This document shows positions 6,127-34,229 of a stretch of DNA of 39,884 nt, piece by piece (within the stretch, counting starts at the first letter, position 1; each line of letters opens with the position of its first letter). The position numbers were made by a program, and so were the translations under genes. The notes under the pieces were generated by a model, which made no database searches, was not told where the DNA came from, and saw only the letters and a list, made by a program, of their open reading frames with translations. The DNA is taken from positions 1 through 39,884 of IMG/VR virus record IMGVR_UViG_3300029892_000009, one strand, 5' to 3'. The stretch is from a virus.

Positions 6127-6133
6127 ATTGAAT

Positions 6134-6520
6134 ATGTCAATAAGAAATTTTATTTCTAAACTATTACTAATCATAATAATTAGTGGATGTGATATTCCTT
6201 CATTTGCACGTAGAATTAAAACTCCTCTTTTCCCACTCACTATTGGACAATTTACCTTAACTGAAGAAACTTGGGAACATATTCAAGAAAAACATCCAGA
6301 TGTTACCATTGAATATATAAAAATAACCTTATTAGACCCGCAGTTAATTGTGATAGACAGTAAGCGTCCAGATACTAAGATTTATCTAAGAAGAGTGGGA
6401 GAAGAAGAAAAAGTTTTAGCAGTTGTGGTTTGGTTGATTGTGCCTGTGAAAGGTTATGTAAAGACGGCGTATTTTACTCATGTATATGATGAAGTGATGC
6501 CAAAAAGGAAAGGGAAATAA
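6134..6520 (+). CDS. Putative lipoprotein with BECR (barnase-EndoU-ColicinE5/D-RelE) nuclease-like domain
   Basis: The 128-residue product starts with a short basic segment and a hydrophobic stretch ending in IISGC, a good lipobox, so export and lipidation are plausible. The remainder resembles phage-associated BECR-fold nucleases: TWEHIQEKHPDV, a LLDPQLIVID strand/turn, LAVVVWLIV and a conserved TAYFTHVYDE end; the His and Thr residues are candidate active-site positions. There is no ribosome binding site before ATG 6134 or TTG 6128, and a terminator precedes it, so the gene behaves like a separately acquired moron. Phage lipoproteins often act in superinfection exclusion. Both the fold and the role are inferences. 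Confidence 0.55.
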   Translation: MSIRNFISKLLLIIIISGCDIPSFARRIKTPLFPLTIGQFTLTEETWEHIQEKHPDVTIEYIKITLLDPQLIVIDSKRPDTKIYLRRVGEEEKVLAVVVWLIVPVKGYVKTAYFTHVYDEVMPKRKGK

Positions 6521-7221: not shown

Positions 7222-7408
7222 CAGCCACGACTTTGTAGTTAATATCTCCCTTAATATTATTGGTTGCTGGAAAAATAACACATACTTTCCACTTCAAAAA
7301 TTTGACAAAAAAATGTATGAAATGAGTGTAAGATGTGAGGCGGAGTTGAACCAAAAATTAATTCAGCTTCATTCCAATTTAATGGAAAAGAGGAAAAATG
7401 CCAAATGA
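7199..7408 (+). CDS. Uncertain small protein (69 aa)
   Basis: Open frame ending in an ATGA overlap with the polymerase gene, which favours translation, but there is no ribosome binding site before ATG 7199. A shorter form from ATG 7314 would give a charged helix (MYEMSVRCEAELNQKLIQLH). No family recognised. Confidence 0.4.
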   Translation: MYFLFTHNSHDFVVNISLNIIGCWKNNTYFPLQKFDKKMYEMSVRCEAELNQKLIQLHSNLMEKRKNAK

Positions 7409-9657
7409 ATACAATAGTTCCATTTGAAGGTCCCACTGACGCAAAGATTTACATAGTAGGGGAAGCACCTGGCGCAGAAGAAGAAGCACAAGGACGACCC
7501 TTTGTTGGAAGTGCAGGACGAATACTTGATAAGTTATTGATGGATGTAGGTATAGTGAGAAGTGAATGTCGTCTTGCAAATGTAATGAGAATTCGTCCGC
7601 CAACGAATAACTTTGCTCACTTCTATGTTGACAAACAGATGCATATACCAAAGCCAGAATTAATTGAAGGAAGAAAATATTTGTTGGAAGACATCAAAAA
7701 GTGCAGACCAAATGTTGTCTGTGCTTTAGGAAATGAAGCATTGATGGCACTATTCTCCCACAGAAATATTACTGATTGGCGTGGCAGTATTCTTTGGCAT
7801 CATCGTCTTAATGTCAAAGTTATTCCCACAGTGCACCCTGCAATGATTATGCGTCAATGGGATTTTGCACCACTTGTTTTATTCGACCTGCGAAAAGTGA
7901 AGGAAGAAAGTGAGACACCAAAATGTAATATACCAAATAGGGACTTCATTCTTGCACCAACATTTGAACAAGTGATGTGTGAATTGGTTAGGTTGCAAAA
8001 ATGTAAAAAAATTGCATTTGATATTGAAACAGAAGGAACTATAATAACTGCCATCGCATTTGCTGATTCGCCTTTTTCTGCCATCTGCATTCCCTTCACA
8101 TTTAGCAAAGGAACAGAGACCATCAACTACTGGCCAACAATAGAAGAAGAAATTGCGGTAATGAATGAAATAAAAAAGTTGATGGAAGATGAGAAAATTG
8201 AGAAGATTGCACAAAATGCTCAATTTGATTGTGTCATATTTGCCATCAATCCTCCTTACATCAATACCAAAAATTTGGTGATGGACACAATGTGCGCTCA
8301 CCACACAATTTACCCAGAATTGCCTAAAGGATTAGAAGTATTATGCAGTATTTATACTCGTCAACCTTACTATAAACATTGGGCAAAAACTGGCTCAGCA
8401 GTAGATTTTTGGAAGTATAATGCAATGGATGCCTGCATTGCATTTGAAACTGCAATTGCAATTGAGAAGGAAATGAAAGAGTTTGGTGTGTATGACTTTT
8501 ACTACAAACTGGTGCATCCATTGATACCAATATTAACTGAGATGCAAATAAGAGGAGTGAAAGTTGATAATCTCGTAAGGCTACAAGCAAATGAGGAATG
8601 CTTGAGAAAAGTTGCAGAAACACAAAACAGATTGAATGAATTGGTAGGAAGACAGGTAAATGTGGTGTCACCAAAGCAACTTAAACAATTATTTTATGAA
8701 GAGATGAAATTGCCTCCTCGCATTAGCAGAGTGCGAGGAACAGAAACAACAGATGAAGAAGCAATTGAAGCACTTGCAGCACAATATCCAAATGAGGTAT
8801 TTGATTTAATCTTAACAATAAGAAAGAACCTGAAGCTGTTAGGAACATATTTGACAGATGAAGGAGAGAGGATAAGATGCTCATATCTCATCGGTGGAAC
8901 AAAAACAGGAAGACTATCCAGTAGAGAAAGTGTGTTTGGCACTGGGTCAAATTTACAAAATATACCAAAAGGCATTTGCAGAAAGATGTTTGTCGCTGAC
9001 GAAGGAAAGGTGTTTATTGAGGCAGATTTGTCGCAAGCCGAAGCAAGAATTGTCGCATACCTCTCAGGAGAAGAGAAATTAATTAATTTGTTCGAGAAAG
9101 GAGGTGACATACACGCACAAGTTGCAGAATGGATTGGTGTTGATAGAGAGCTGGCAAAAAGATTAGTGCACGGAAGTAATTACGGAATTGGTGTAAGAAC
9201 ATTTGCTTACCACGCACAAATCAAAGAAAGCAAAGCAAGGGAGGTATTGCAGAAGTATTTTGACACATTCCCAAAAATCAAAATGTGGCAATTACAAATA
9301 CAAGCACATCTTTCTAAAACACGAATAATGGAAACACCAATGGGAAGAAAAAGACTATTCTTTGGTCGTTGGGGAGAGCAATTGTTTCGTGAGGCATATA
9401 GCTACATACCGCAATCCACAGTTGCTGATGTCTTAAATTTGGCAATCATCAATTTAAAGAAATCAATACCAAATGCGGAGATTATGTTGCAAATACATGA
9501 TGCCTTTGTGGTGCAATGTGCGGAAGGAGAAGTAAACATGTATGCTGATGCAATTAAAGAAATATTTAAAATACCTCTCACAATAAACAACAAGACATTC
9601 ACAATCCCTGTTGAGATTAAGACAGGTAAAAACTGGGACGAAATGCACAAAAGGTGA
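7405..9657 (+). CDS. DNA polymerase: uracil-DNA glycosylase-like domain + 3'-5' exonuclease + family A polymerase
   Basis: The 750-residue replicative polymerase. Residues about 1-180 resemble family 4 uracil-DNA glycosylases: IYIVGEAPGAEEEAQGRPF (motif 1) and TVHPAMIM (HPA motif 2); the usual N-terminal CxxC of the Fe-S cluster is absent. A DnaQ-like exonuclease follows, with FDIETEG (about 205), AQNAQFD (about 270) and YNAMDA (about 338). The family A core has DLSQAEARIV (motif A, about 541), RLVHGSNYGIG (motif B) and QIHDAFVV (motif C, about 696), where the usual HDE is HDA. A UDG-like domain N-terminal to a PolA-type polymerase is known from phage SPO1, so this fusion is not unique. The start overlaps the previous stop, with GAGG upstream. 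Confidence 0.9.
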   Translation: MNTIVPFEGPTDAKIYIVGEAPGAEEEAQGRPFVGSAGRILDKLLMDVGIVRSECRLANVMRIRPPTNNFAHFYVDKQMHIPKPELIEGRKYLLEDIKKCRPNVVCALGNEALMALFSHRNITDWRGSILWHHRLNVKVIPTVHPAMIMRQWDFAPLVLFDLRKVKEESETPKCNIPNRDFILAPTFEQVMCELVRLQKCKKIAFDIETEGTIITAIAFADSPFSAICIPFTFSKGTETINYWPTIEEEIAVMNEIKKLMEDEKIEKIAQNAQFDCVIFAINPPYINTKNLVMDTMCAHHTIYPELPKGLEVLCSIYTRQPYYKHWAKTGSAVDFWKYNAMDACIAFETAIAIEKEMKEFGVYDFYYKLVHPLIPILTEMQIRGVKVDNLVRLQANEECLRKVAETQNRLNELVGRQVNVVSPKQLKQLFYEEMKLPPRISRVRGTETTDEEAIEALAAQYPNEVFDLILTIRKNLKLLGTYLTDEGERIRCSYLIGGTKTGRLSSRESVFGTGSNLQNIPKGICRKMFVADEGKVFIEADLSQAEARIVAYLSGEEKLINLFEKGGDIHAQVAEWIGVDRELAKRLVHGSNYGIGVRTFAYHAQIKESKAREVLQKYFDTFPKIKMWQLQIQAHLSKTRIMETPMGRKRLFFGRWGEQLFREAYSYIPQSTVADVLNLAIINLKKSIPNAEIMLQIHDAFVVQCAEGEVNMYADAIKEIFKIPLTINNKTFTIPVEIKTGKNWDEMHKR

Positions 9658-13240: not shown

Positions 13241-14539
13241 TTATAAGTAACCCCACATTTTTAACCTTTTAACATCTTCATTTACCCTCTCCCCTATGTC
13301 AGTTCGATACTGCGCTTGTGGTATAATTAAATTATTTATTGTCCTATAAACACGACGACGACATTCCCTCACATCCGACCCTCTTGCAGTCACCACACCT
13401 AAATTACCATCACTACCTGCACTCTCATAATATTTGCTTCCCGCTCGCACATCACCCCACCAAATATGTTTTAAGTTCTCACTATTAGTTCCAATCACTG
13501 GCACTCCTATAGGGACATTTTCTGCAGTGTGAGGATAAGGCGGTATACTGACACGAACGCCAATTGCATATCCACTGTGATATTCTCCATGTTCATTACT
13601 TCCTGTCGCTATTGCAAATAATAGTTGTGTAAGAGAGCCACGGTAAAGTTCGAGCAATGTTTGCACAGCATCATATCCAAATCTCACTGTAAACTCTAAC
13701 CCAAACAAACCATCTTTATTCACAATTGAGTTCAAATCAATTGGGCCACGATATTGTACTTTCTTCAGTAAGCGTTCCATCTTTCCCACACCTTCTCTTA
13801 CCAATCTACTTTTCGAAGGTAAGAAAGCAACCACATTGCCTGCACATCCCATCGCAGGCCCAACATCGTCATTCATAAACTTCTTCTCTTCCATCGTCCA
13901 GTTGTGCAAATGTGCGCTGATGCCATTCCACCAAATTTCACAACTTACCTCAACTCCTTCTACATACTCCTGCAACTCAAACTCACACTTGTCATTATGC
14001 CAAAGTTGCAACATCGCTATCATATCCTCTGTTCCTTTTGCAACATATGTATGAGAACACTCAATATTCCCACTCGGCTTATACACATACCTTTTTCCCG
14101 TCTTCTGCACAAACTCCGCTGCCTTTTCATGTTGTCCTGCAGTAAACATATGTGTGAGAGGAGTGCGTATGTCCGTTGCCTTCATCAACTTATATCCATA
14201 CGCACGGTCAAGTTCAGCAACATCAGCCCACTTGCTTGCACCAAATACAGGTATATTTTGTGTGCGTATGCAGTCAGCAACTTCTCCCATCTTCACCATA
14301 TCAAATACACAGAAATCAGGCTGTACTTCACGCAAAAGCACATTCACATTCGCCTTAATTACTTTACGAGTCTTCTTCGTCATTATTGGCAACTTACACT
14401 TTGGCTTCTGCACTATTCCATCCCCAATTTTCTGTGCCTTTTCTTCATATATGTAGAAGAACACATTGTGTCCCTCTCTTTGCACACGCTCAGCGAGAGA
14501 GAGTGAGTCGCCACTCATACTAACAAATAAGACGTTCAT
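13241..14539 (-). CDS. PurD-like ATP-grasp ligase (phosphoribosylamine-glycine ligase family)
   Basis: 432 residues with the PurD plan: N-terminal Rossmann part (VLFVSMSGDSLSLAERVQ; VQPDFCVFDM), an ATP-grasp with FGASKWADVAELDR, RYVYKPSGN (ATP-binding Lys), LQEYVEGVEVSCE and the C-terminal GLEFTVRFGYDAVQ. In classical PurD the last motif is EFNxRFGDPE; here Asn is Thr and DPE is YDA, so a changed substrate is possible. It is the last gene of the late operon, after the ejected-protein genes, without a clear ribosome binding site, 18 bases downstream of the previous stop. Similar PurD-like genes occur in other phages. Glycine- or amine-ligation to a nucleotide, DNA base or virion component is inference. 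Confidence 0.75.
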   Translation of the reverse strand: MNVLFVSMSGDSLSLAERVQREGHNVFFYIYEEKAQKIGDGIVQKPKCKLPIMTKKTRKVIKANVNVLLREVQPDFCVFDMVKMGEVADCIRTQNIPVFGASKWADVAELDRAYGYKLMKATDIRTPLTHMFTAGQHEKAAEFVQKTGKRYVYKPSGNIECSHTYVAKGTEDMIAMLQLWHNDKCEFELQEYVEGVEVSCEIWWNGISAHLHNWTMEEKKFMNDDVGPAMGCAGNVVAFLPSKSRLVREGVGKMERLLKKVQYRGPIDLNSIVNKDGLFGLEFTVRFGYDAVQTLLELYRGSLTQLLFAIATGSNEHGEYHSGYAIGVRVSIPPYPHTAENVPIGVPVIGTNSENLKHIWWGDVRAGSKYYESAGSDGNLGVVTARGSDVRECRRRVYRTINNLIIPQAQYRTDIGERVNEDVKRLKMWGYL

Positions 14540-18790: not shown

Positions 18791-19449
18791 TAGAACCTCT
18801 CATAAATTGCAGGGTCAAATTCGTGTTCTTCGATTGTGCCAGTTTGTCCTGTGGCTTTAAGTCTAACTCTTATTCTTCCCCTCCTTCTTCTTGGCGCTGG
18901 TGGTGGTACATAGTAGTCTGCGATTGCAGCTGGCGCGGGCGGTGTGACTGTAGGCGCTGTTGGTGCAGGTGGTGGAAACGGTGGAGGCGTAACTCTCTCA
19001 CCTCCGAATAGGCGTTGCCACCAACCTATTTTAGGAGGGTCTTGAGTAGCTTCGTATGCTCTGATATACATATCACTAAAACGTTCACCAAATTGCCTTT
19101 GCCACTCTCTGCCAATATATGTTGCATCCAACATAGGAGCTCTTTCTCTTAGGAAGGGCAGTCTTTTGTCCCAGTCGATGGCTTCAAGTTCTGCGTGAAG
19201 TCGTCGAAATACTTGTTCATCGCTTTCCAGCAGTGCACGTACAGTTTCTCTTCTTTCTTCTGCAGCAATTTTTCTCTCTTCTAATTCAAATTGTCTTTCC
19301 CACGGTCTAATTCGTGCTCTTTCCAATTCTCTCTGTTCCCTTCTTTCCCTTGCACCAATATACGCTCCAAGTCCTTCTCTTATTGCTTCAGCTAAATAAC
19401 TCCACCTATCTTCTCTTGGTAAGACACCAAGCCAAGTTAAACCTGCCAT
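18790..19449 (-). CDS. Charged helical virion protein with proline-rich linker (219 aa)
   Basis: GGGAGGTGAAAT precedes the ATG. Residues about 20-90 form a long Arg/Glu-rich helix (ARERREQRELERARIRPWER), followed by a segment ending WWQRLFGGE, a proline/alanine-rich linker (TPPPFPPPAPTAPTVTPPAP), a basic RRRRGRIRVRLK strand and a final EEHEFDP. It probably belongs to the internal-protein set with its neighbours. No enzyme motif is seen. Confidence 0.65.
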   Translation of the reverse strand: MAGLTWLGVLPREDRWSYLAEAIREGLGAYIGARERREQRELERARIRPWERQFELEERKIAAEERRETVRALLESDEQVFRRLHAELEAIDWDKRLPFLRERAPMLDATYIGREWQRQFGERFSDMYIRAYEATQDPPKIGWWQRLFGGERVTPPPFPPPAPTAPTVTPPAPAAIADYYVPPPAPRRRRGRIRVRLKATGQTGTIEEHEFDPAIYERF

Positions 19450-19928
19450 ATTTCACCTCCCATTTTAGCACCCTTTTTTATGTTGTATTCAGTACATAAA
19501 CTTCTTATTTTGTTAGCTAAATAATAATCTACATCATCATATTTTTCTTTCCCACCTTTGTCTAATCTATTTTTGATGTAATCAATCATAGATTGAGCAA
19601 TTTGTTTTTTTCCACTTAACAAATAATTGACTATTGGTAAAAGAACTTTTAAAATACTTTTATGTGCTTGAACATTTATATGATAGACATCTCTCCCGAT
19701 ATAAGTCTTAGGTTTAGTTACGTGAATACTATATTCAACTCCCATCCCGTTGTATACTCTAATTATATTGTCTCTGAGAGGAACACTCGATGTTGATATA
19801 GTTACCCTCAGCATTACTCTGGTTCTATCATCTCTTTTATCATATCCAGCTTTACAACTCAAACAACCTTCACCTTCAATCATTCCAACTAACCACCCCA
19901 AATCAAATTGGGAAAATAACTCTGCCAT
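19437..19928 (-). CDS. Free-standing LAGLIDADG homing endonuclease
   Basis: 163 residues with one LAGLIDADG helix (LGWLVGMIEGEGCLSC, about residues 10-25), so it should act as a homodimer. The downstream strands (VMLRVTISTSS; VYHINVQA) fit the saddle of this fold. GAGGTGTAATT precedes the ATG, and its 3' end overlaps the next gene by 13 bases. The flanking genes have their own intact starts and stops, so it appears to sit between genes rather than in an intron. The stop-adjacent palindrome copy 2 is in its leader. Confidence 0.85.
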   Translation of the reverse strand: MAELFSQFDLGWLVGMIEGEGCLSCKAGYDKRDDRTRVMLRVTISTSSVPLRDNIIRVYNGMGVEYSIHVTKPKTYIGRDVYHINVQAHKSILKVLLPIVNYLLSGKKQIAQSMIDYIKNRLDKGGKEKYDDVDYYLANKIRSLCTEYNIKKGAKMGGEIWQV

Positions 19929-24516: not shown

Positions 24517-24636
24517 CTACCACCTAAAAGAGTATTTAAATCCCCAGTATTTTGTCCCTGCGGGTGTTTCACAGTAACCAATTTTCAGTCTACCACTTAA
24601 TAGTTCTTTGGTTACTACGAAAGCACCCAAGATTAC
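24517..24636 (-). other. Open -1 frame downstream of the holin-like gene, possible frameshift extension (39 codons)
   Basis: If ribosomes slip -1 on A_AAA_AAG at 24636-24642, translation continues past the holin stop for 39 residues (VILGAFVVTKELLSGRLKIG, then YCETPAGTKYWGFKYSFRW). The sequence reads like protein. The alternative is a separate frame from TTG 24630 with no ribosome binding site. A 7-bp hairpin (24610-24616 with 24573-24579) lies about 19 bases past the slip site, farther than usual for a stimulator. Confidence 0.45.
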
Positions 24637-24803
24637 TTTTTTGCAATGCCTGCTCTAAGTGTCATTGCTAAAATTGTGGTCATCAACAAGTTCCAGTTGA
24701 GTTCGCCTGTCTCTACCCAAGTAATCAAGACGCCGATGATGGTCACGATACCAACGAGATAAGTCTTTTTGCCAGCTAACACCTGTCGGATTTTGTCTAA
24801 CAT
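24633..24803 (-). CDS. Small holin-like membrane protein (56 aa)
   Basis: GTAGGAGGTGAAAAGCA precedes the ATG. The product begins MLDKIRQVLAGKKTYLVG, has one transmembrane helix (YLVGIVTIIGVLITW), a short ETGELNW link and an amphipathic second segment (LLMTTILAMTLRAGIAKK). This build, including the TLRAGIAK ending, is frequent in small phage holin-type proteins of tail/lysis regions. It would make membrane lesions at the end of infection. Its last codons form the heptamer A_AAA_AAG in the -1 slip phase directly before TAA. Confidence 0.65.
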   Translation of the reverse strand: MLDKIRQVLAGKKTYLVGIVTIIGVLITWVETGELNWNLLMTTILAMTLRAGIAKK

Positions 24804-29835: not shown

Positions 29836-30503
29836 CAGTTTTGTTATCCTACAGGTATCTCCCCTGTAGTTCTACACATTGCTGTGTAGCTCGGGTCATC
29901 TCATCCGCTTCATTCGGTTGGGCACTTATGTCCATTATTTCAGGACTGACCTCCACACCTTCTCCACTTCTGGAGCTTGGCTCGGTATCGTCCATTTTTG
30001 GATGTTCACCGAATTCACCCAATTTTTCATCTGGATGCAGGATGGACTGTAACTCTTTAAATAGTCGCTCTCTCCGTGCGTTCACTTCAGCTGTTACGAA
30101 ATTGTTTCTCTTAAATGTAGACACAACTTCATAAACTATCTCCAACTGTCTTTTCTTGACTATGGAAAAGGGATGCATTGCTTCTATCAGGTCTAAAATG
30201 TCTTGAGTTCCTCCCACACGCCAATCAAACAACGGTCTCCTTTTGCCGCTTGTCTTTCTGTCTCTTGGCGTCCCAATACCAGTCATTTTGTAAAGATGCA
30301 GGATTAACTCTAAAGATGTGTTGGCAATAAATAAGTAGCAGCGAAAAATGGGATAACCCCTTTTGCTAACCTCACACATCTTGTCTTTGTAGAGGACAAC
30401 ACAACCTTCTCCATCAAAAATACCAGCGAGATAGGCTCTTTCCGCATCCGAAAGCAACTCTATTCGTCTCATCATTTCTCCAGATGCTCCCTTACACTTT
30501 GCG
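29836..30503 (-). ncRNA. Group I intron in the major capsid gene
   Basis: The minus strand has the conserved group I core. P4: TTGG (30019-30022) with CCAA (29977-29980). P5: CGGT (30008-30011) with ACCG (29983-29986), inside the hallmark TTGGGTGAATTCGGTGAA ... ATACCGAGCCAAGC. P6: CTCCA/TGGAG (29962-29975). P7: GGTCA (29947-29951) with TGACC (29894-29898). P9: CTACAC/GTGTAG (29872-29889); P9.1: CTACAGG/CCTGTAG (29849-29869). The terminal G is at 29836. P1 pairs exon CTCT plus C with GGGAG (30487-30491), with U-G at the splice site; P10 pairs exon 2 TACAC (29830-29834) with GTGTA (30493-30497). P3 and P8 are less certain. Length 668 nt. Confidence 0.88.
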
Positions 30504-30538
30504 AGAGTATCCAACTGCTCAACATACGAAAGTGCCAT
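29849..30538 (-). CDS. LAGLIDADG homing endonuclease of the capsid-gene intron
   Basis: 229-residue frame starting at the capsid ATG and continuing in frame from exon 1 into the intron. The single LAGLIDADG motif is YLAGIFDGEGCV (about residues 34-45), with further fold-like strands (FRCYLFIANTSLELILHLYK; PLFDWRVGGTQDILDLI). After about residue 165 the frame only translates the intron core (P3-P9), so the functional domain is shorter than the frame. An internal start, ATG 30475 or 30472 behind GGAG, would give the enzyme without capsid residues. It would cleave intronless capsid alleles and promote intron spread. The stop lies in P9.1. Confidence 0.85.
   Translation of the reverse strand: MALSYVEQLDTLAKCKGASGEMMRRIELLSDAERAYLAGIFDGEGCVVLYKDKMCEVSKRGYPIFRCYLFIANTSLELILHLYKMTGIGTPRDRKTSGKRRPLFDWRVGGTQDILDLIEAMHPFSIVKKRQLEIVYEVVSTFKRNNFVTAEVNARRERLFKELQSILHPDEKLGEFGEHPKMDDTEPSSRSGEGVEVSPEIMDISAQPNEADEMTRATQQCVELQGRYL
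30504..30538 (-). CDS. Major capsid protein, exon 1 (first 11 codons plus two bases)
   Basis: AGAGAGGTGAGAA precedes the ATG. The 35 nt encode MALSYVEQLDT plus CT of the next codon; the first base of exon 2 completes it (CTG, Leu), giving MALSYVEQLDTLYTTTFQLR. The MALSYVEQL start is typical of capsid proteins with a following TTTxQLRR segment, which supports the join. Confidence 0.8.
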
Positions 30539-31291: not shown

Positions 31292-31515
31292 GTTTTACCT
31301 CCTTCGCCTATTTTTAGTTTTCTGTCTTTTTCAGACATTTGTGAATGTTTCCACTTTCTATACTCCTTCATCATTCCTCTCCACGCTACAGAAACATCTG
31401 CCCCTTTTACATCACCATCAAATATTGCAGTCGGCGGTTTGTTGTTGTAGAGGGTAATGGTGATTGTTGCTTTCCAATCTTTGTCGCCTGCTACTGAAGT
31501 GCTCGCCTCTCCCAT
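31288..31515 (-). CDS. Small head-module protein (75 aa), unknown
   Basis: AAAGGAGGTGAAGT before the ATG. The middle is a likely beta hairpin (DWKATITITLYNNKPPTAIF DGDV) and the end is a basic helix (WRGMMKEYRKWKHSQMSEKD). Coupled to the scaffold by ATGA. Function unknown; similar genes lie beside scaffolds in related gene orders. Confidence 0.65.
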   Translation of the reverse strand: MGEASTSVAGDKDWKATITITLYNNKPPTAIFDGDVKGADVSVAWRGMMKEYRKWKHSQMSEKDRKLKIGEGGKT

Positions 31516-31530
31516 ACTTCACCTCCTTTT

Positions 31531-31770
31531 TTACCATCTAAAACTCCCTCTCAAGCCTATATATTGTCTAAACGGGTCAGCTTCCAAACGAATATCACCT
31601 GCTTCTCCGAAAAGTAATTGAGCTAAGTAAGGTTTTGGAGGACGTAATTCAATGCCTACTTTGTTTAACTCTTCTAAAATTCGCCCAATAGGTATTTTTC
31701 TTCTCTTTGCTTCTCTGAAGAGAGCATCAAGGATTATGTCGTATGGACCAGCAATATCTAATCTTGGCAT
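31531..31770 (-). CDS. Small head-module protein (79 aa), unknown
   Basis: TAGGAGAAATAA before the ATG. The N-terminal half is helical (YDIILDALFREAKRRKIPIG RILEEL) and the C-terminal half is PPKPYLAQLLFGEAGDIRLE. Probably a minor virion or assembly protein judged by place between the portal and the scaffold. Confidence 0.65.
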   Translation of the reverse strand: MPRLDIAGPYDIILDALFREAKRRKIPIGRILEELNKVGIELRPPKPYLAQLLFGEAGDIRLEADPFRQYIGLRGSFRW

Positions 31771-31779
31771 TTATTTCTC

Positions 31780-32050
31780 CTACATACAGGGCGCTCTAAA
31801 TCCACGCCTCTTTTTATATTTTTCTGCAAGTTCTCTTTCACACCACCAAATATTAGAGAAGCCTGACTGCGATGAGGTTTCTCTTTTTGCACTCTTCTTT
31901 GAGTTGTCTTTTGCTGGTGATGTGGATGGGATAGACATCAAGGTCTTCGTATGTCCAGGGGGTAAAAAACATCGGCTTTGGTGATGTGTCTTCCCCACAT
32001 TTGCATATCTTTTTCCACCATCCGCACTGTTCACAACTCTCTCCTTTCAT
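31780..32050 (-). pseudogene. Cys-rich small protein, apparently frameshifted near its end
   Basis: The frame from ATG 32050 (TAATG overlap with the portal stop) gives 65 residues, MKGESCEQCGWWKKICKCGE with CxxC...CxC, then FTPWTYEDLDVYPIHITSKR, and ends at TAA 31853. The +1 frame downstream, to 31780, stays open and protein-like (SNIWWCERELAEKYKKRRGF RAPCM) up to the next gene. The reading that joins the two frames would be about 90 residues, as in phage proteins with a SKRQLKEECKKR segment near the end. It may be a real broken gene, a sequence error or a programmed event; no classic +1 signal is seen. Alternatively the 65-residue form is complete. Confidence 0.5.
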
Positions 32051-33804: not shown

Positions 33805-34046
33805 TACTTACTCCTATCCCTGATTGCTCGTGCGACTGGTGAGCCTCTTCTACGTTCTCTATATTTTGCTCTTACTGTTTGCCAGTAAGCAGCTCCCGCA
33901 ATTTTCTCTGCTCTTTCTCTACCAAACCCATATCTTCTCATTATCTGCCGCACAATTCTTTCAAATGTTGCTGGACGCATAATTGCACCTGGTCTCTGTC
34001 TTTCTCTCCATCTCAACAACTTTTCACCCATTATTCTGCCGCCCAT
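33804..34046 (-). CDS. Small basic protein (80 aa)
   Basis: Coupled by TAATG to genes on both sides. Arg-rich throughout (GEKLLRWRERQRPGAIMR; MRRYGFGRERAEKIAGAAYW) with a helix-turn-helix-like middle, so nucleic-acid binding is likely. Function unknown. Confidence 0.65.
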   Translation of the reverse strand: MGGRIMGEKLLRWRERQRPGAIMRPATFERIVRQIMRRYGFGRERAEKIAGAAYWQTVRAKYRERRRGSPVARAIRDRSK

Positions 34047-34207
34047 TATTTTCCTCTCCTTTCGATTGCATCTGCTACCCGACTTCTTCCTTTTCTTGCT
34101 TGCTTCAACGCAATTGCAACTGCCTGTTTACGTGGATAGCCAGCACGTACTAACTCACTGATGTTTGCACTAATCACTTCTCTACTTGTTCCTCTTTTGA
34201 GTGGCAT
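34046..34207 (-). CDS. Small basic protein of a widespread phage family (53 aa)
   Basis: Begins [20 protein letters not shown], continues [19 protein letters not shown] and ends ADAIERRGK. The MPLKxGxSxxVISxNIxEL...[12 protein letters not shown] pattern recurs in many phages near terminase and portal genes; its role is unknown. The stop overlaps the next ATG (TAATG), and GGGAGTTAAAA precedes its start. Confidence 0.75.
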
Positions 34208-34229
34208 TTTTAACTCCCTTCATTTAATC

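Follow-up and report, generated by a model that had tools for sequence, protein, structure and literature searches.

The window analysed here is the whole stretch of 39,884 bases of IMG/VR record IMGVR_UViG_3300029892_000009, which derives from an uncultured virus. Terminase, portal and podovirus-like structural genes lie on its minus strand. The holin-like gene that is the subject of this study is surrounded by tail-fibre-like and podovirus-like structural genes and by small membrane proteins; no tape measure gene was identified in the window around it. The features of the locus are as follows.

24633–24803, minus strand: holin-like gene, short product; ATG start, 56 codons, TAA stop; predicted two-helix hairpin; C-terminus ..RAGIAKK, then the stop
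24636–24642, minus strand: slippery heptamer A_AAA_AAG, in the phase for a -1 shift; the zero-frame stop TAA (24635..24633) comes immediately after it
24629–24635, minus strand: spacer TAATCTT, 7 nt, between heptamer and hairpin
24562–24628, minus strand: predicted stimulatory hairpin, GGGTGCTTTCGTAGTAACCAA / TTGGTTACTGTGAAACACCC, with a 26-nt loop region
24517–24636, minus strand: -1-frame extension, 39 codons and TAG, VILGAFVVTKELLSGRLKIGYCETPAGTKYWGFKYSFRW; predicted long product of 95 aa
24254–24499, minus strand: gene of an 81-aa protein in which a single transmembrane segment at the N-terminus precedes a charged, helix-like tail

Elsewhere in the window, a single open reading frame on the plus strand (7405–9657) unites a domain of the uracil-DNA glycosylase superfamily, a family A DNA polymerase and a 3'-5' exonuclease domain, and positions 6128–6520 (plus strand) weakly match the PBECR2 phage nuclease family. 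An ATP-grasp protein resembling phosphoribosylglycinamide synthetase (PurD) is encoded at 13241–14539 (minus strand) and is possibly an auxiliary metabolic gene. Two weak LAGLIDADG-type homing endonuclease matches (19437–19928 and 29849–30538, minus strand) lie amid the structural genes. The late block is compact apart from two unusually long gaps with no assigned gene, at 31292–32049 (758 nt) and 33805–34229 (425 nt).

Read from 24803 to 24633, the holin-like gene encodes MLDKIRQVLAGKKTYLVGIVTIIGVLITWVETGELNWNLLMTTILAMTLRAGIAKK. AlphaFold2, run on 15 relatives, confidently predicts a hairpin of two helices at residues 13–32 and 37–55, with a mean pLDDT of 88.9. Hydropathy peaks at 2.62 and 1.64, the N-terminus is positive, and the turn is acidic. 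Holins are small and span the membrane with one to three helices; this protein, with two predicted helices, has the size and topology of one. One could argue that it has another late role in the membrane, such as that of a spanin partner or of a virion-associated protein: the 56-aa protein has no significant match to a described holin family in Pfam or PHROG, no endolysin was recognised in the 39,884-base window, and tail genes surround the locus. The predicted hairpin with its positive N-terminus argues against this, and so does the neighbourhood of its relatives. On viral and genome contigs, homologues flank five kinds of cell-wall hydrolase recognised by Pfam (VanY, Amidase_3, GH108, Amidase_2 and CHAP); the endolysin-adjacent relatives are L033, L039, L040, L042, L046 and Synechococcus phage Ssp-JY42. 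In Ssp-JY42, an isolated phage, a VanY-type endolysin lies on one side of the homologue and an Rz-like spanin on the other. We therefore call the gene holin-like, with moderate confidence. From the gene neighbourhood of its relatives and the predicted topology we infer that the protein is probably a holin; a different membrane function is unlikely, though it keeps an appreciable share of the probability.

The nearest match by neighbouring structural gene is L006, which encodes a 593-aa homologue, 52% identical, of a structural gene product. Its lysis region is different and has no holin-like gene; hence it has no bearing on frameshifting. Its structural genes are closely related, yet the small membrane proteins that it encodes at the same place (L006:4200-5040) have nothing in common with those of the window. 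The lysis-like region is thus exchanged between relatives.

The last codons of the holin-like gene are GCA AAA AAG, followed by TAA. The heptamer starts on the third base of a codon, which is the classical -1 phase. The initial annotation had drawn attention to this heptamer at the gene end and to a -1 frame open for 39 codons, with forms of 56 and 95 residues. Both hold on reading the sequence: A_AAA_AAG lies at 24642..24636, right before the TAA, and the -1 frame runs to a TAG at 24519..24517. On the statistics of the window alone, the combination could be due to chance. Among 10,766 gene codons there are 7 in-phase A_AAA_AA[G/C] sites, so the heptamer is ordinary by itself, and 9 of the 38 genes have a -1 frame that stays open for at least 39 codons past the stop. 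What lifts the signal well above chance is the hairpin, together with the conservation of heptamer, hairpin and -1-frame protein in two other lineages.

The hairpin, a strong structure that the initial annotation did not mention, begins 7 nt 3' of the heptamer and has a folding energy of about -26 to -27 kcal/mol. Its z-score is -4.0 to -4.3 against dinucleotide shuffles and -3.4 against synonymous shuffles that preserve the -1-frame protein. The corresponding synonymous-shuffle scores are -7.4 for L084, -2.3 for L030 and -2.25 for L031, so that the last two hairpins are only moderately unusual. In all three lineages a hairpin is predicted 7–8 nt after the heptamer, within the spacing of about 5–9 nt expected of a stimulatory structure. 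The registers of stem pairing differ among the lineages. Hence, the position of the hairpin is kept and individual pairs are not, and there is no strict base-pair covariation. The window hairpin has no match in Rfam, and we rejected its reading as a transcription terminator because it lacks a U-tract. A few nt 5' of the heptamer, where dnaX has an optional Shine-Dalgarno-like stimulator, the window and L030 read GCAGG but L084 reads GCTGG, and the conserved RAG codons also dictate these letters.

The -1 frame carries a tail of the pattern GYCET..KYWGFK..RW in the window and ..GYCET..KYWG[FI]K.S across lineages. Modelled alone, the tail forms three short strands at modest confidence (pLDDT 77), and structure searches with this model gave no significant match. 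Neither the long form of the window nor that of L030 has a match in isolated phages or plasmids; the long form of L084 matches two Synechococcus phages in its holin part only.

A protein-family scan gave about twenty members. The closest of them, on the viral contigs L030, L031 and L032, are about 55% identical to the window protein and were found without using the heptamer. They carry A_AAA_AAC at the same codon and in the same phase as the window heptamer, followed by a GGGGTC..GACCCC hairpin. Their -1 frame reads LVLGVFKVVRAFTVYKLQIQIGYCETPEWAGSQKYWGFKVSWRW, which is homologous to the extension in the window. Their zero frame continues for seven codons beyond the heptamer; conservation of the -1 frame thus holds despite different zero-frame ends. 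A third lineage, the viral contig L084, came from a pattern scan for the heptamer in a holin context. It has A_AAA_AAC TAA, a hairpin of roughly 20 bp after 7 nt and a -1 frame that reads LIKGLFIAVKTYSIMNKAHLKLGYCETEKWYDPRTDSMQGGTKYWGIKIS... Since L084 was picked out by its heptamer, only its extension and hairpin count as independent support. The scan returned 69 matches, and L084 was the only new true relative among them. Most of the others belong to an integrase-like protein (..ISAGIRKNSPDGS) and were set aside as not being holins; matches to the extension pattern in L058 and L059 were dismissed as chance.

The extensions are clearly related to one another. Alignment scores are 103 (window and L030), 76 (window and L084) and 95 (L030 and L084), while the best of 3000 shuffles reached 47, 53 and 45. 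This corresponds to z-scores of 12.6–17.6, and the other two reading frames score 17–33. Between the window and L030, 21 residues of the extension are identical, and 12 of these 21 are encoded by different synonymous codons. The differences by codon position (13/14/22) point in the same direction, a signal that is weak alone. Heptamer (A_AAA_AA[C/G]) and extension occur together in 5 of the 22 family members and are both absent from the other 17. The combination is seen in three lineages only, namely the window, L030/L031/L032 and L084, and scans with the extension sequence found no copy without holin and heptamer. That relatives might keep both elements had been proposed as a check on the initial annotation, and L030/L031/L032 and L084 do keep them. 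Of its interpretation, the frameshift part is thereby well supported; the holin part stands on neighbourhood and topology, and family models did not bear it out.

Homologous extensions, in-phase heptamers and hairpins in the relatives, together with the absence of start codons from the tail frame of L030–L032, make it very likely that programmed -1 frameshifting yields the 56-aa and 95-aa products. That slippage takes place in vivo is what we infer from the signal, the homologous -1-frame tail and the spacing of the hairpin.

One could also argue that frameshifting is real but serves mainly to carry ribosomes to the gene of the 81-aa protein, with the tail being secondary. Some aspects of the arrangement fit such translational coupling. 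In the window the -1-frame TAG abuts an ATG, and in L030–L032, where a homologue of the 81-aa protein follows the extension, the TGA overlaps the next ATG. Delivery of ribosomes to the next gene is therefore possible in these genomes. In addition, the gap of 133 nt behind the stop of the holin-like gene, which only two of the 27 gaps of the late block exceed, would otherwise be untranslated. Coupling as the main purpose nevertheless seems rather improbable to us, because the amino-acid sequence of the tail is itself conserved and because the extension of L084 is longer and ends about 30 nt short of the next start.

Directly after the -1-frame TAG of the window lies a six-codon open reading frame, MSENKT (24516–24496, minus strand), behind AGGTGG. 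Its stop codon TGA shares bases with the start of the 81-aa gene (ATGA), which points to stop-start coupling of that gene.

The extension might instead be an independent small gene, or be reached by re-initiation just past the holin stop, the heptamer being incidental. Internal starts are possible in two cases, given that in the -1 frame a TTG follows the heptamer at 4 codons in the window and an in-frame ATG at 16 codons in L084. Moreover, in members that lack the extension (L001, L033), an overlapping ATGA often opens the next gene, which lies in the -1 frame. The initial annotation had named an extension with its own start in relatives as one observation that would speak against frameshifting. 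We find the opposite in L030, L031 and L032: from stop to stop their -1 frame contains no ATG, GTG or TTG, which excludes independent initiation there for the usual start codons. The homology sets in right behind the lysines of the heptamer (KK[VL][IV].G.F) and so precedes the possible starts, and every member with the extension has the heptamer. A separate or re-initiated gene is thus very improbable.

RNA polymerase could also slip on the A6 run and produce mRNA with one or more altered As that encodes the long form. A run of six As is short for efficient transcriptional slippage. Furthermore, the heptamer fits the X_XXY_YYZ codon phase exactly, G or C closes the run in every case, and all three lineages place a hairpin at the distance that stimulates ribosomal slipping. 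Products of this kind are known to arise alternatively through transcriptional slippage on A runs (PMC5009743), yet at this site that route is very improbable.

Pure coincidence of the heptamer with an open -1 frame, KK being a conserved C-terminus, can hardly be credited: the counts of heptamers and open frames in the window would allow it, and L001 and L033, which lack the extension, likewise end in AKK, but it is contradicted by the homologous extensions in L030–L032 and L084, by a -1-frame peptide conserved across lineages whose holin parts are only 40–56% identical, and by the fact that in L030–L032 the conserved frame is the -1 frame even though the zero frame runs on.

Most known cases of programmed frameshifting in tailed phages concern tail chaperones, major tail proteins and capsid proteins. 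In the open-access literature we found no published case of a frameshifted holin; the frameshifts met there are in tail or capsid genes. The mechanism is of a known kind, and it is the gene class and the conserved tail that appear to be new. The tail-assembly chaperones (lambda gpG/gpGT, P2 E/E+E', phiCbK) resemble the window gene in that a -1 shift near the 3' end of a late gene adds a C-terminal extension to a minor product, and the chaperone gene of phiCbK uses A_AAA_AAC (PMC3556154). The window gene differs in that its product, of about 56 aa, is a membrane protein with two helices and the extension is unrelated. We rejected a chaperone frameshift of the gpG/gpGT type because the site does not lie between a major tail protein gene and a tape measure gene. 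The signal also resembles that of E. coli dnaX (tau/gamma), where A_AAA_AAG and a 3' hairpin likewise give two proteins from one start (PMC5009743). The shifted product is shorter in E. coli dnaX and longer in the window gene; for some other bacterial dnaX genes with a stop directly after the site, a longer shifted product has been proposed (PMC5009743).

Two kinds of lysis system also invite comparison. Dual-start holin/antiholin genes (lambda S105/S107; SPP1 24.1/24.1* and 26/26*) encode two products per gene that are proposed to tune lysis (PMC6316719). Like the window gene, they give products that differ at one end. In the dual-start holins, however, the difference is a few N-terminal residues set by two start codons, whereas in the window gene it would be a 39-residue C-terminal tail added by frameshifting. 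In the two-component holins of the XhlA/XhlB type (PBSX, SPP1), a small protein with two transmembrane segments adjoins a single-span protein with a helical tail, as is the case here. Unlike in those systems, no endolysin was recognised in the window, and the 81-aa protein matches XhlA only at E 0.18, far below the cut-off.

Under our preferred reading, most ribosomes would terminate at the TAA that adjoins the heptamer, yielding the 56-aa short form. Some, held by the hairpin, would slip by -1 with tRNA-Lys and read 39 more codons, giving the 95-aa long form. The long form would consist of the membrane part and a basic, presumably cytoplasmic, tail. By analogy with known antiholins, it could assemble with the short form in one membrane complex, where it would be a minor subunit that delays or tunes lysis. 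An antiholin-like form would then be made at the 3' end of the gene instead of through a dual start. We regard the account as a whole, a holin-like gene with a programmed -1 signal that yields a short form and an antiholin-like long form, as likely. A role of the long form in lysis timing is a more tentative suggestion, again drawn from analogy. Still more doubtful is the proposal that a lysis protein encodes both its active form and a built-in modulator from one start codon, in a ratio set by programmed -1 frameshifting.

If there is indeed an antiholin-like long form with a GYCET/KYWGFK tail, then the timing of lysis depends on the behaviour of the ribosome. The ratio of two lysis proteins would be set during translation, by a route that is simple and can be tested. 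In these viruses gene finders would also be overlooking a conserved domain, the -1-frame tail. A conserved frameshift in a holin-like gene would join two themes of phage biology, frameshifting and holin genes with two products.
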